Shown one piece after another: positions 834-47,582 of a stretch of 64,000 nucleotides of DNA. Where the stretch lies: assembly GCA_002256395.1 (NCBI GenBank), contig NKJG01000010.1, positions 16,761-80,760 on the forward strand, in the 5' to 3' direction. Position 1 is the stretch's first letter; every line of letters begins with the position of its first letter. The stretch comes from Bacteroidetes bacterium B1(2017). GTDB lineage: Bacteria > Bacteroidota > Bacteroidia > UKL13-3. The notes under the pieces are model-generated. The model was not told where the DNA came from. It did no database searches and saw nothing but the letters and a program-made list of their open reading frames with translations. A program made the position numbers and the translations under genes.

Positions 834-922
834 GGCATGGCTTGCCTGCCTCCGCTAAAGCTACGGCAGACAAAGCATGGCATGGCATGGATGTGCGCTG
901 CGCTTACTTAGGCATGGTAAGA
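834..922 (+). repeat. GCATGG-modular intergenic element, copy A
   Basis: aaggcatgg...cctgcctccgctaaagctacggcag...gcatggcatggcatgg...ttaggcatggtaagacc; starts 3 bp after the upstream stop codon. Confidence 0.75.
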
Positions 923-1057
923 CCTGCGGAAGGCAAACGGCCAGAAGCCAGAAGCTAGAAGCCAGTTGCCATTCTTTAGAGGCTGTTGCGGTTTACGTAG
1001 GAAGTTAAATATAGGTGAAAATGGTAGAAAAGAATTAATATTTGTAAACGAAAACAT

Positions 1058-1606: not shown

Positions 1607-1700
1607 GGCATGGCATTGCCTGCCTCCGCTAAAGCTACGGCAGACAAAGCATGGCGTTGCATGGTCGTAAGCTTCGCATACTTAGGCATGGTATGACCTG
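1607..1700 (+). repeat. GCATGG-modular intergenic element, copy B
   Basis: Same module order as copy A: ggcatgg - cctgcctccgctaaagctacggcag hairpin - gcatggcgttgcatgg - cttaggcatggtatgacc. Confidence 0.75.
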
Positions 1701-1712
1701 CGGCGGGGAGTG

Positions 1713-2965: not shown

Positions 2966-3009
2966 CTTTCTCCCATAAAATTGATTAATATTGCATACAC
3001 AAACAAAAA

Positions 3010-3062
3010 AGCCAGCTGCCAGCTGCCAACTGCCAGAAGCCAGAAGCCAGAAGCTAGCTGCC
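3010..3062. repeat. CCAGAAG/CCAGCTG short-period repeat
   Basis: gccagctgccagctgccaactgccagaagccagaagccagaagctagctgcc. Confidence 0.7.
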
Positions 3063-3079
3063 ATCAACCCATACTCACC

Positions 3080-20356: not shown

Positions 20357-20503
20357 CCCATAAACCCTTCGATAAACTCCGTGACCTTGAAATAAGCGTA
20401 CCTCGCACGCCCATGCTTTAGCGCAGGCAGTAGACTAGCGACAAGTGACCTTCCCCTCAACCCGCGACCAGCGACCTTCTTCCCTACTAGCGACCTTCTT
20501 CAT
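20357..20503. repeat. Composite of decayed intergenic repeats
   Basis: cccttcgataaactccgtgacc (half of the CTTCGA element), cccatgctttagcgcaggcag, gcgaccagcgacc...ctagcgacc. Confidence 0.5.
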
Positions 20504-20550
20504 TGAAAACACCCAAACTTTTCGCATATTTGCCTCCATAACTAAATAGA

Positions 20551-23162: not shown

Positions 23163-23234
23163 AAGGCATGGCGTTGCTTGGCATTGCATGGACGGTCTGC
23201 CAAGGCAGACCTAAGGCATGGTAAGACGCTGCGC
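23163..23234 (+). repeat. GCATGG-modular intergenic element, copy C
   Basis: ggcatggcgttgcttggcattgcatgg-acGGTCTGCCaaGGCAGACCtaa-ggcatggtaagacg; begins 2-3 bp after the hmgA stop. Confidence 0.75.
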
Positions 23235-23342: not shown

Positions 23343-24497
23343 ATGTATAACGACTTAACCGAAGTAAAGAACTTTACTTACACTGGTGCCAAAATTTTTG
23401 ATCAGGCACAGGATTTCCTTCCTATTAATGGAACGGATTATGTTGAATTGTATGTGGGAAACGCCAAGCAAGCGGCGCATTTCTACAAAACTGCCTTGGG
23501 TTTCCAAGACCTAGCCTATGCTGGTTTAGAAACGGGTCTTAGAGATAGAACATCGTATGTTTTACAACAAGGTAAAATAAGGTTGGTTCTTACCACTCCG
23601 TTTGATCCAGAAAGTGAAATTGCCCAACACCTACGCATGCATGGCGACGGGGTGAAAGTGATTGCTCTATGGGTGAATGATGCCTATGATGCCTATGAAC
23701 AAACTATTTCACGCGGTGCTAAATCGTATATGGAACCTAAAACGGTTACCGATGCCGATGGTGAAGTGCGCATGAGTGGTATTCATACCTATGGCGAAAC
23801 GGTTCATATTTTTGTGGAGCGTAAAAACTACAAAGGTTTATTCTTACCTGGTTACGAAAAACTAGAAACAGGTTATAACCCTGGCTCAACAGGTTTAAAA
23901 TATGTAGATCATATGGTGGGCAATGTAGAATTGGGAGCCATGAACAAATGGTCGGATTTTTATGCCAACGTAATGGGATTTGCAAACCTAGTAACCTTTG
24001 ACGATAAAGATATTTCTACCGAATATACCGCTCTTATGAGTAAGGTTATGACCAATGGAAATGGCTATATCAAATTCCCTATTAACGAGCCTGCTATTGG
24101 CAAAAAGAAATCGCAAGTAGAAGAGTATTTAGATTTCTATAGAGGTGCGGGCTGCCAGCACATTGCTGTGGCTACAGATGATATAGTATTTACCATTAGC
24201 GAAATGCGCAAACGTGGCGTAGAATTTTTATACGTACCCGGCACTTACTACGATACTGTTTTAGACCGTGTAGGTATTATAGAAGAAGACCTTAATGAGT
24301 TAAAGAAATGGGGTATTATGGTAGATCACGATGAGGAAGGATATTTATTACAAATATTCACCAAACCGGTAGAAGACCGCCCAACCTTATTCTTTGAAAT
24401 TATCCAACGCAAAGGCGCCAAATCATTTGGCAAAGGAAACTTCCAAGCCCTCTTCGAATCCATAGAAGCAGAACAAGCCCGCCGCGGAACGCTTTAA
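23343..24497 (+). CDS. hppD: 4-hydroxyphenylpyruvate dioxygenase
   Basis: FYKTALGFQDLAYAG...DHMVGNV...YLLQIFTKPVEDRPTLFFEIIQRKGAKSFGKGNFQALFESIE. Confidence 0.95.
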   Translation: MYNDLTEVKNFTYTGAKIFDQAQDFLPINGTDYVELYVGNAKQAAHFYKTALGFQDLAYAGLETGLRDRTSYVLQQGKIRLVLTTPFDPESEIAQHLRMHGDGVKVIALWVNDAYDAYEQTISRGAKSYMEPKTVTDADGEVRMSGIHTYGETVHIFVERKNYKGLFLPGYEKLETGYNPGSTGLKYVDHMVGNVELGAMNKWSDFYANVMGFANLVTFDDKDISTEYTALMSKVMTNGNGYIKFPINEPAIGKKKSQVEEYLDFYRGAGCQHIAVATDDIVFTISEMRKRGVEFLYVPGTYYDTVLDRVGIIEEDLNELKKWGIMVDHDEEGYLLQIFTKPVEDRPTLFFEIIQRKGAKSFGKGNFQALFESIEAEQARRGTL

Positions 24498-24498
24498 G

Positions 24499-24598
24499 AA
24501 GCATGGTGTTGTAAGCCGTCGCTATCGCTTTGGCATACAACGCATGGCATAGCATGGACGTACCGCCATGGCGGAACTAAGGCATGGTAAGAGCTTCG
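24499..24598 (+). repeat. GCATGG-modular intergenic element, copy D
   Basis: gcatgg-tgTTGTAagccgtcgctatcgctttggcaTACAAc-gcatggcatagcatgg-acgtaccgccatggcggaactaa-ggcatggtaagagcttcgc. Confidence 0.75.
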
Positions 24599-24650
24599 CA
24601 TTTGGTATGGATAGGTCGCGGCCTGTGCCGTGATGAAAGAATACATAAAC

Positions 24651-24689
24651 AAAAAAAGGCCCTCACGCGCAGCGTAATGGCCTTTTTTT
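24651..24689. terminator. Bidirectional intrinsic terminator between convergent hppD and lipoprotein genes
   Basis: AAAAAAAGGCC...GGCCTTTTTTT. Confidence 0.85.
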
Positions 24690-24696
24690 GTTTTGT

Positions 24697-24828
24697 AGCG
24701 CGAAGCGTCTTACCATGCCCTAGGCCCGCGCCCGCGGACCGCCCATGCATTTTATGCCAAAGCGATAGCGAGGCATAAAATACCATGCGTAATTTGCCAA
24801 GCGATAGCGAAGGCAAATTACACCATGC
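24697..24828 (-). repeat. GCATGG-modular intergenic element, copy E (inverted)
   Basis: gcgcgaagcgtcttaccatgcccta...ATTTTATGCC/GGCATAAAAT and GTAATTTGCC/GGCAAATTAC hairpins...ccatgcc; ends at the lipoprotein stop codon. Confidence 0.8.
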
Positions 24829-24829
24829 C

Positions 24830-25447
24830 TTATTTAGGCAATGCTTTCTTTGTTTGAATAATCACCCTCTCCTGCTCACTCAGTAATTCGAGCAAAGGCT
24901 TAGTGGATGGCAATTTATTAGATTGGTATTTTTGGATACTAGGCAGAGTTAAGCTTATTTTTAGGAGCACGCGTAAGTCTTCCAGCTTTTGCGAATTTGT
25001 TTGGAGTTGGCTTAAGAGTGTTACGTTTCTTAAACATTTAATAGAGTCTTGCAACTCACTTTTTTTGAGTAAGGCAATCACTTGCTCTCTAATTAAACTA
25101 TCGCTAATAGAGTTAGCCATACTACCTGCATCCTCATAATATTGTTGCGACTTTGAATGATAGTCATTAAACTCAGATTCTAATTTAGAGGAAGCTACTT
25201 GTTGATTGGCAAAGTTGGTATTAAGGCTCTCTAAGGATTTATTTTTTGAAGACAATTCAGTATAAATTTCCTCCACCAAATTAGTGTAACCTTTGCCGCT
25301 TCTAAAACTACCATAATCTTCCTCAGCCACCTTCACTAAAGCCTCCGGCTCCAAGGTATCAGATGAGTTACGCAGTGTATCGTTGCTTCCCCCTTTACCA
25401 CATGATACAAAAAATAAAATACAGAGTATATAAAGAATGTTTTTCAT
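24830..25447 (-). CDS. Hypothetical lipoprotein
   Basis: Start revised to MKNILYILCILFFVSCGKGG (lipobox). Confidence 0.7.
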   Translation of the reverse strand: MKNILYILCILFFVSCGKGGSNDTLRNSSDTLEPEALVKVAEEDYGSFRSGKGYTNLVEEIYTELSSKNKSLESLNTNFANQQVASSKLESEFNDYHSKSQQYYEDAGSMANSISDSLIREQVIALLKKSELQDSIKCLRNVTLLSQLQTNSQKLEDLRVLLKISLTLPSIQKYQSNKLPSTKPLLELLSEQERVIIQTKKALPK

Positions 25448-25480: not shown

Positions 25481-25545
25481 AGCATGGCGTTGCATGGCAT
25501 AGCATGGGCGGGCGCTGCGCTTCCTTAGGCATGGTAAAAGCTGCG
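25481..25545 (+). repeat. GCATGG-modular intergenic element, copy F
   Basis: agcatggcgttgcatggcatagcatgggcgggcgctgcgcttccttaggcatggtaaaagctgcgc. Confidence 0.75.
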
Positions 25546-25564
25546 CTAAAGAAAGAAAATCTCC

Positions 25565-25604
25565 AAAAAAAAGACCACCACGCTCCGCGTAGTGGTCTTT
25601 TTTT
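25565..25604. terminator. Intrinsic terminator downstream of fbp
   Basis: AAAAAAAAGACCACcACGC-tcc-GCGTaGTGGTCTTTTTTT. Confidence 0.85.
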
Positions 25605-25612
25605 ATTCTGCA

Positions 25613-25745
25613 GCGCAAAGCGTCTTACCATGCCCTAGGCCCGCGCCCGCGGACCGCCCATGCATTTTATGCCAAAGCGATAGCGAGGCATAAAATTCCA
25701 TGCGTAATTTGCCAAGCGATAGCGAAGGCAAATTACACCATGCCT
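25613..25745 (-). repeat. GCATGG-modular intergenic element, copy G (inverted)
   Basis: Nearly identical to copy E; abuts the fbp stop codon. Confidence 0.8.
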
Positions 25746-31012: not shown

Positions 31013-31957
31013 TTATTTAAGTCGAACCAAGGTAGCGCCACTACCAAACTGAAGGATATCGGCATCGGTAAAGTTTAGCACCATCTCTGGGTGTTTGCTA
31101 AGGTAGGTTCTAATCTTATTCTTTAAATAGGCATTGCCTACACCATGAATAAAGATTATTTCGGGCATATGATGCACAAAGGCTGCTTCCAAGGTTTTAG
31201 CAAACACATCCATTTGAAAGGCGGTGATGTCTTCGGCAGTGCCATAGCCATTTTGCTTTAAGGCATCGTAATGCAAATCTATAATAGAAGCAGGTTTAGC
31301 TTTAAAATCTATTCCCTTCTCCTCTATTTTCTCGGCAAAATCTTTTGTTTTAAGTTTGGCAAAATCTACCTTTTCTACTTCTTCATCTAACCTAAACACA
31401 TAAGCTTGTTTGTTTAAGAAAGCGCAGTGTTTCCAAAAATTATAAAAGGTTTTGGCATTAAACTGTAAACTTGTTGTTACCGAATTTGCGGTCTTAACCG
31501 TTACACTTTCGTAAGGCAAAATAATAAATTGGTAAGGCAACCATTTATCAAAGCTACTCAAAGTTGTTTTTCCAAGTTGCTTGGTTTCGTCGCGTTCTAG
31601 ATACATACTTTTTTCTAAATGAAACACTGCTTGCTCTTTAGTATATACCAAAATGGTAGCATGCTCACTTAAATTATTATGTACGTGTATGGTTAAATCT
31701 GTTTCGCCAACCCGTTCAAAGGCTAGGAAAATTCCTAAAGGTTGGTTGGTGGCAACTCTAAAAGGCTTTGCAGGTTCGGCCTTTGGATTATTACCCGCCT
31801 TGTCTTCAAACTTTATCTTAACTACTTCCGAGATTAAAACAGGTATCTCAAAATCGCTATCTACGGTAACACCAATTTGATTCTTACCAAGGAGGGACGT
31901 TACAATCCCCTCCATGTTTTCGTTTAAGAATCTTACTTTATCACCGAGTTGTATCAT
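31013..31957 (-). CDS. DUF2027/Smr domain-containing protein (MutS2 C-terminal-like)
   Basis: N-term MIQLGDKVRFLNENMEGIVTSL; C-term Smr-like IIDLHYDAL...IIFIHGVGNAYLKNKIRTYLSKHPEM. Confidence 0.85.
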   Translation of the reverse strand: MIQLGDKVRFLNENMEGIVTSLLGKNQIGVTVDSDFEIPVLISEVVKIKFEDKAGNNPKAEPAKPFRVATNQPLGIFLAFERVGETDLTIHVHNNLSEHATILVYTKEQAVFHLEKSMYLERDETKQLGKTTLSSFDKWLPYQFIILPYESVTVKTANSVTTSLQFNAKTFYNFWKHCAFLNKQAYVFRLDEEVEKVDFAKLKTKDFAEKIEEKGIDFKAKPASIIDLHYDALKQNGYGTAEDITAFQMDVFAKTLEAAFVHHMPEIIFIHGVGNAYLKNKIRTYLSKHPEMVLNFTDADILQFGSGATLVRLK

Positions 31958-32117
31958 ATTTTTTATCCGCCGAAGCTTTAGCGCAGGTGGACCATGTTTT
32001 CGTTTAAGAATCTTACTTTATCACCGAGTTGTATCATATTTTTTATCCGCCGAAGCTTTAGCGCAGGTGGACCATGTTTTCGTTTAAGAATCTTACTTTA
32101 TCACCGAGTTGTATCAT
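31912..32117. repeat. 80-bp tandem repeat (2 full + 1 partial 45-bp copy) including the 5' end of the Smr gene
   Basis: ccatgttttcgtttaagaatcttactttatcaccgagttgtatcat + attttttatccgccgaagctttagcgcaggtgga recurs at 31912, 31992 and 32072. Confidence 0.95.
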
Positions 32118-32119
32118 GT

Positions 32120-33217
32120 TTATACGTTAAACTTAAAATGCATTACGTCGCCGTCTTGCACAATATAGTCTTTTCCTTCCATGCTAAGCTTACCATTTTC
32201 GCGGCAAGCAGCTTCGCTACCAAATTTAAGGTAATCTTCTAAGTGAATTACCTCCGCTTTAATAAAGCCTCTTTCAAAATCGGTATGTATTACACCAGCA
32301 GCTTGAGGAGCTTTAAAACCACGGTCGATAGTCCATGCACGCACTTCTTGCACACCAGCAGTAAAGTAGGTTATTAGGTTCAGCAAATGATAAGCACCAT
32401 GGATTAATTTAGCCACCCCAGATTCTTCCAAACCAAGGTCGCTCAAGAAAGCCTGACGATCTTCGAAACTATCTAAACCAGCAATATCCGCTTCAATAGC
32501 AGCGCTAATAACTAATACTTCTGCCTTTTCGTTCTTTACCGCTTCTTTTACTTTATCTACATGCACATTGCCTTTTACAACGCTGCCTTCATCTACATTA
32601 CATACGTATAATACAGGCTTAAGAGTAAGCAAACATAAGTCGGCCACTTGCTCTAATTCGTCTTCGCTAACTTCTAGTGTACGTGCATTTAAACCGTTCT
32701 CTAAATGATCTTTAAACTTAATTAAAGCCGCTTCTGTTTTCACAGCCGTTTTATCGCCTGTTTTAGCCGCACGAGTTGTTTTAATTAATTTCTTTTCTAT
32801 AGAATCAATATCCTTCAACTGTAGCTCCGTATCAATTACATCCTTATCGCGCAACGGGTTAACGCTACCATCTACGTGTATAATATTATCGTCTTCAAAG
32901 CAACGCAATACATGAATAATAGCATCGGTTTCTCTAATATTACCCAAGAACTGGTTACCCAATCCTTCGCCTTTACTAGCGCCTTTTACTAAACCAGCAA
33001 TATCTACAATCTCAATAGTGGTAGGCACCAAACGATTAGGCTTTACAAATTCGGCCAATTTATTTAAGCGAATATCGGGAACGGTAATCACCCCAACATT
33101 TGGCTCAATAGTACAAAAAGGAAAGTTTGCAGCTTGCGCTTTTGCATTACTTAAGCAATTAAATAAGGTTGATTTTCCAACATTGGGCAAGCCCACGATT
33201 CCGCATTGTAAAGCCAT
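32120..33217 (-). CDS. ychF: Redox-regulated ATPase YchF
   Basis: MALQCGIVGLPNVGKSTLFNCLSNAKAQAANFPFCTIEPNVG; C-terminal TGS-like domain. Confidence 0.97.
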   Translation of the reverse strand: MALQCGIVGLPNVGKSTLFNCLSNAKAQAANFPFCTIEPNVGVITVPDIRLNKLAEFVKPNRLVPTTIEIVDIAGLVKGASKGEGLGNQFLGNIRETDAIIHVLRCFEDDNIIHVDGSVNPLRDKDVIDTELQLKDIDSIEKKLIKTTRAAKTGDKTAVKTEAALIKFKDHLENGLNARTLEVSEDELEQVADLCLLTLKPVLYVCNVDEGSVVKGNVHVDKVKEAVKNEKAEVLVISAAIEADIAGLDSFEDRQAFLSDLGLEESGVAKLIHGAYHLLNLITYFTAGVQEVRAWTIDRGFKAPQAAGVIHTDFERGFIKAEVIHLEDYLKFGSEAACRENGKLSMEGKDYIVQDGDVMHFKFNV

Positions 33218-47412: not shown

Positions 47413-47499
47413 GCTTCTGTCTCAGATTTAATGAGGCAAAATACATATCAAAAGGCACAAGAAACCCACAAAGAATTGACATTTGGGAAATACTGGCAG

Positions 47500-47582
47500 C
47501 TGGCTTCTGGCTCCTAGCAGCTGGCAAAAAGTTATCTACCTTCCAAGAGCCAGAGGCCAGTAGCCAGAAGCCAGAAGCGGCC
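47500..47582. repeat. CCAGAAG-family inverted repeat
   Basis: ggcagctggcttctggctcc ... gccagaggccagtagccagaagccagaagcggcc. Confidence 0.65.

Follow-up and report, generated by a model that had tools for sequence, protein, structure and literature searches.

Among the intergenic repeats of this genome we identified a modular family of about 50 copies in which the two arms of an internal hairpin, H1, change from copy to copy and nevertheless match each other. This covariation is real and statistically firm, and it accompanies a defined architecture, placement between genes and a restriction to one lineage. In the best reading, the family is new and lineage-specific but of a known kind, being organised like the REP and BOX repeats that lie between genes. 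With modest confidence, we consider it probable that the H1 arms of these modular elements are kept complementary mainly by template switching during replication, a cause that we prefer and that is inferred from the way in which the arms differ.

Each element comprises, in order, a purine run, GCATGG units, a terminal hairpin (H2), GGCATGG and TAAGACCTGCGG, with the family consensus RRRRAAG-GCATGG-slot-GCATGG-slot-GCATGG-H2-(A/G)-GCATGG-TAAGACC-TGCGG. The slots separating the GCATGG units are filled either by a 4-nt spacer, YRTW, or by the 34-35-nt hairpin H1, and about one to seven of them lie between the conserved head and tail of an element. The conserved stretch begins about 7 nt ahead of the first GCATGG and fades some 12 nt past the last. 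In most copies H1 reads YRTWNNNNGCC-[NNCGCTNNNGCTNN]-GGCNNNNWAY, the pair adjoining the GCATGG unit following the spacer (TGTT...AAC, TATT...AAT, TGTA...TAC or CATA...TAT), whereas H2 exhibits mainly 21-, 23- and 24-nt forms. One copy (L042:10575-10650) consists of 10-nt GCATGGYRTT units only, without a hairpin, and lies beside an inverted copy with two hairpins. The 50 elements analysed were parsed from forty stretches of the genome (5.5 Mb in 225 contigs, estimated contamination 7%), one spurious cluster being excluded. BLAST returned 64 places across the genome with the region of elements D and E as query and 48 with element A, and the pattern GCATGG-N(3-33)-GCATGG has 140 matches in the whole genome, compared with 5-31 in relatives of the same family.

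Seven copies, A to G, are located in the window, that is, the whole 64-kb stretch of DNA that was analysed, and all the stem sequences named in the original prediction are present there. Element A (835-929, plus strand; H1 841-874, H2 891-911) lies 3 nt after a TAG stop, and element B (1608-1703, plus strand; H1 1614-1648, H2 1665-1685) lies 10 nt after a TAA stop. Their H1 stems, CTGCC[TCCGCTAAAGCTAC]GGCAG, follow the expected rule of a different stem around a similar loop. Element D (24494-24599, plus strand), 3 nt after the hppD stop (TAA 24495-24497), comprises a head GCATGG at 24501, H1 at 24507-24541, GCATGG at 24542, a CATA spacer, GCATGG at 24552, H2 at 24558-24581, GCATGG at 24582-24587 and the tail TAAGAGCTTCGC. 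Its H1, TGTTGTAAGCC[GTCGCTATCGCTTT]GGCATACAAC, shows a single A-A mismatch, so that the stem is spelled TTGTAaGCC[GTCGCTATCGCTTT]GGCaTACAA. Element E (24701-24828, minus strand), 1 nt after the stop of a minus-strand ORF ending at 24830, carries two H1 hairpins, H1a at 24789-24822 (TGTAATTTGCC[TTCGCTATCGCTT]GGCAAATTAC) and H1b at 24749-24782 (TATTTTATGCC[TCGCTATCGCTTT]GGCATAAAAT), followed by H2 at 24719-24742 and a tail to 24701. The stems alone, GTAATTTGCC[TTCGCTATCGCTT]GGCAAATTAC and ATTTTATGCC[TCGCTATCGCTTT]GGCATAAAAT, are both free of mismatches. Element G (25616-25743, minus strand), 6 nt after the fbp stop, likewise has two H1, with the same stems as in E, an H2 and a tail, and belongs to a 184-nt repeat with 93% identity to E. 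Elements D, E and G thus display differing yet complementary stems around a common CGCTNNNGCT core, as had been described.

Element C (23166-23233, plus strand), located 5 nt after the hmgA TAG stop, is the exception and lacks the shared loop. C has decamer spacers and no H1, and its hairpin, GGTCTGCC-AA-GGCAGACC (23192-23215, plus strand), is the terminal module H2 in its 24-nt form with a 2-nt loop; the earlier list of stems therefore merged two modules. Element F (25482-25546, plus strand) also contains decamer spacers only (CGTT, CATA) and a 21-nt H2, and its head lies 34 nt upstream of an ATG on the opposite strand. Between the tails of D and E, the sequence and fold of the gap reveal a terminator-like hairpin (24651-24689, A7 GGCC...GGCC T7; no strand assigned). 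This hairpin and a second one at about 25566-25605 are both inside the 184-nt repeat (93% identical overall), with stems GGCC and GACCACC, respectively, each self-complementary. The pair is possibly another case of arm rewriting.

The covariation of the H1 arms was measured on 16 distinct H1 cassettes. Paired cells amount to 93.1%, compared with 77.0 +/- 2.0 after shuffling, double-sided changes number 26 compared with 7.3, and the covariation score is 0.423 compared with 0.116 +/- 0.028, a value reached in 0 of 500 shuffles. When partners were slid by one to three columns, the score was at most 0.12 and pairing went down to 27-50%. Shuffling of whole right arms among 14 distinct arm pairs gave 99 expected Watson-Crick pairs, whereas 129 of 140 are observed (P<=5e-5). 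A GCC...GGC filter was used to gather the cassettes, so that the three innermost pairs are uninformative and the signal lies in the outer seven. Paired changes are also seen in H2, where pair 4/16 of the 21-nt form is G-C in 11 copies, T-A in 14, G-T in 1 and unpaired in 3 (n=29), and where 61 of 64 cells of the 24-nt form are paired. Because covariation among the copies is strong, the absence of covariation that would have spoken against the original prediction was not observed.

The distribution of mismatches gives an indication of how the arms come to match. Six of the seven H1 copies with at least three arm differences are mismatch-free, whereas seven of the eight copies with the common arm are mismatched (Fisher P=0.01, for 15 copies, with the three-difference cut set post hoc and kinship among copies ignored by the statistics). 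Such divergent arms without mismatches fit one-step arm copying better than stepwise compensation. In addition, the copy at C202:317202 combines perfect arms with a loop in inverted orientation (GAAGCTTTAGCGAA), and its left arm, CATAGCATG, has the sequence of an array. During replication, a template switch between the two arms of a hairpin would copy one arm onto the other; a single step could replace several base pairs at once and would occasionally invert the loop, and the conserved GCC-[NNCGCTNNNGCTNN]-GGC core would be the part that persists. Template switching has been described as homogenising arms, producing several compensatory changes at once and inverting loops (PMC8794818, PMC8604942). 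We prefer it because the multi-base replacement of arms by perfect ones and the inverted loop match its predictions, and the mechanism most likely acts on DNA. The hairpins of those studies resemble the present ones in both of these features, but they were inferred on single-locus phylogenies, whereas the present case comes from comparing paralogous copies within a single genome.

The copies are fitted into intergenic space. By script, 31 of the 50 heads adjoin a stop codon on the same strand (-18 to +12 nt). Two of them had been misplaced by a chance GCTTGG/GCAGGG upstream and lie, by eye, at about +1 and +26; after correction, 30 heads are within -11 to +12 nt of such a stop codon, the genes being simple ORF calls. 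In five cases the upstream gene terminates within the element, at a TAG in the first spacer 11 nt past the element's start. Among the other 19 heads, fifteen face an opposite-strand start codon at 14-106 nt. The adjoining genes are ordinary ones, such as hmgA, hppD, fbp, alaS, polA, RF3 and Tex, and also include Por secretion tails and TonB receptors. Ten inverted tail-to-tail pairs are observed, compared with 0.07 expected from a rough gene-pair estimate. Elements less than 5 kb apart are more alike than others (P=0.006), and 184 nt are common to E and G (93% identity), which indicates that local copying occurs. In contrast, convergent partners are not more alike (P=0.59), so simple recent copying of one partner does not account for the inverted pairs.

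The location of many copies after stop codons raises the possibility of a role in the 3' UTR, where the hairpins might, for instance, block 3'-5' exonucleases or be bound by a protein; compensatory substitutions would then account for the stem changes, and the loop would serve for recognition. About 30 of the 50 copies start at the stop codon of a same-strand gene and would be expected to be transcribed with that gene, H1 covariation is strong, and a few cells look like intermediates (a G-U at pair 8/41 in C137:255895 and a C-A at pair 12/37). Under selection on RNA, the sense strand should fold better than random, G-U intermediates should occur and the loop should keep a single orientation. 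The sense strands of E and D do fold somewhat better than shuffled sequences (z of -2.4 and -1.8), but those of A, B and F do not (-0.6, -0.5 and +1.7), and E folds better in antisense (-3.8) than in sense. The non-Watson-Crick cells of all 16 H1 copies comprise 8 C-A, 2 A-A, 2 T-C and 2 G-U, that is, no excess of sense-strand G-U over C-A; the C-A cells come largely from copies of one arm type and therefore represent few independent events. Furthermore, 15 copies are located ahead of gene starts in antisense orientation, at least three of these being, to judge from the neighbouring genes, between divergent genes, and one H1 loop is inverted (C202:317202). A search of the window against Rfam at the gathering score matched 5S rRNA only, with no match for the element. 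A sense RNA structure is at most putative, and a strict 3'-UTR RNA element is rejected, as more than one third of the copies lie elsewhere than behind a stop codon on their own strand. We therefore regard RNA selection as an unlikely main cause, which may contribute as well since many copies are sense-oriented in putative 3' UTRs. Of the two readings offered originally, selection on structure or a copying mechanism, the second is the better supported, RNA selection lacking a clear sense-strand signal.

Wholesale differences between arms could also reflect independent insertion. In that case ready-made hairpins, each with its own stem, would have entered the GCATGG arrays separately, and there would be no covariation by descent. 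One slot can indeed carry either a 4-nt spacer or H1, and hairpins that stand alone, with the H1 core but other complementary arms, are present in several same-genus genomes and in one other genome of the family. However, 13 of the 14 strict-core matches in the genome itself lie inside GCATGG elements, which leaves no visible donor pool, and the base of the arms carries on the sequence of the array spacer, a match not expected of a ready-made insert. This explanation appears rather improbable.

The hairpins that stand alone in genomes of this genus and family obey the same arm-matching rule, with 45 of 54 outer pairs formed compared with 26 after shuffling (P<=5e-5). The H1 core is rare in the phylum, its exact form being found in 6 of 297 genomes, including the one studied here. 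The full GCATGG element was not found in the 63 other genomes of the family that were searched, and the two same-genus matches among them, of 27-29 nt, cover the H1 core only. In nine same-genus genomes with hppD homologues 89-92% identical, no element was seen alongside the gene in the flanks covered, which for some loci were partial, and the intergenic sequence there is too diverged to mark an insertion point or a target duplication. The exact tail pattern gave three chance matches in genome contigs of unrelated organisms, and a literature search by loop sequence yielded no relevant paper. It is conceivable, albeit with low probability, that a minimal mobile hairpin core, GCC-NNCGCTNNNGCTNN-GGC, spreads through the genus, its arms being copied from the landing flank and only the loop being inherited. 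Within the window, an 80-nt tandem repeat at gene starts (31912-32151, 2.7 copies) has a hairpin, TCCGCC-GAAGCTTTAGCGCA-GGTGGA, whose core resembles that of H1.

Classical REP-RAYT mobilisation, in which a Y1 tyrosine transposase of the genome itself would move the GCATGG repeats, is very improbable. The search for a REP-associated transposase elsewhere in the genome, as had been suggested, did return six Y1_Tnp matches, and the tail-to-tail pairs and the placement at stop codons resemble those of REPs. However, these six loci contain isolated hexamers only and no GCATGG array. Three of them do show REP-like repeats, but of other kinds, namely GGGCCTGAAGGCCC in long tandem at L071 (G000:C44:109905), GCTCCATAGGAGC at L073 (C113:207129) and GCCCTGAAAGGGC at L074 (C137:973702), for which reason RAYT mobilisation was rejected. 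A Pfam scan of 29 ORFs adjoining elements revealed no transposase family, and the hairpin foot has no GTAG/CGTC tag, the conserved flanks being RRRRAAG-GCATGG and GGCATGG-TAAGACC. The three different repeats at Y1 loci suggest several REP systems in one assembly. The window also contains GTCGCTGGTCGCTAGTCGC-type 7-mers arrayed in both direct and inverted orientation (2793-2967 and 20434-20508) and arrays of GCCAGAAGC / GCCAGCTGCC 7-mers, some in inverted pairs (933-972, 2997-3064 and 47493-47581). Integron attC sites keep their structure while their stem sequence varies and lie directly after stop codons, both of which recall the present elements, but they are ruled out by context, the GCATGG family adjoining ordinary chromosomal genes on both strands with no cassette arrays recognised, and by the absence, by eye, of an R-box motif (GTTRRRY/RYYYAAC).

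The closest known systems are the REP and BOX families. REPs are found less than 20 bp away from the 3' end of ORFs and provide TAG stops (PMC3733652). Like REP/BIME elements, the GCATGG family consists of short, lineage-restricted intergenic palindromes in many copies, located less than 20 nt after stop codons, often supplying the TAG, with opposite-orientation pairs and complementary stem changes; about 30 of the 50 heads and the 10 tail-to-tail pairs conform to this placement. Unlike them, it has several hairpins per unit and 10-nt repeats, exhibits neither GTAG nor CGTC, and has no transposase found beside it. The pneumococcal BOX element (boxA-boxB(n)-boxC), which encodes 36 stop codons, is modular (PMC3049150), and the GCATGG family shares with it fixed ends and a variable number of internal modules, a position between genes, an enrichment between convergent genes and the ability to provide the upstream gene with its stop codon. 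It differs in organism and, by description, in sequence, and its internal module is a 4-nt spacer or a hairpin with varying, still paired arms. The placement of the family is therefore not new, as published REP families lie equally near ORF ends and likewise donate TAG stops, and BOX elements are similarly modular and donate stop codons.

If the mobile-core reading were true, this would be a mobile element that inherits just its loop. More generally, covariation is usually taken as proof of a functional RNA, whereas the matching arms, the occasional loop inversion and the lack of a clear sense-strand signal in this family suggest that the cause is mutational. Since a single genome offers many paralogous hairpins, the family could, together with a few sister strains, be used to gauge how often template switching yields covariation without RNA selection.
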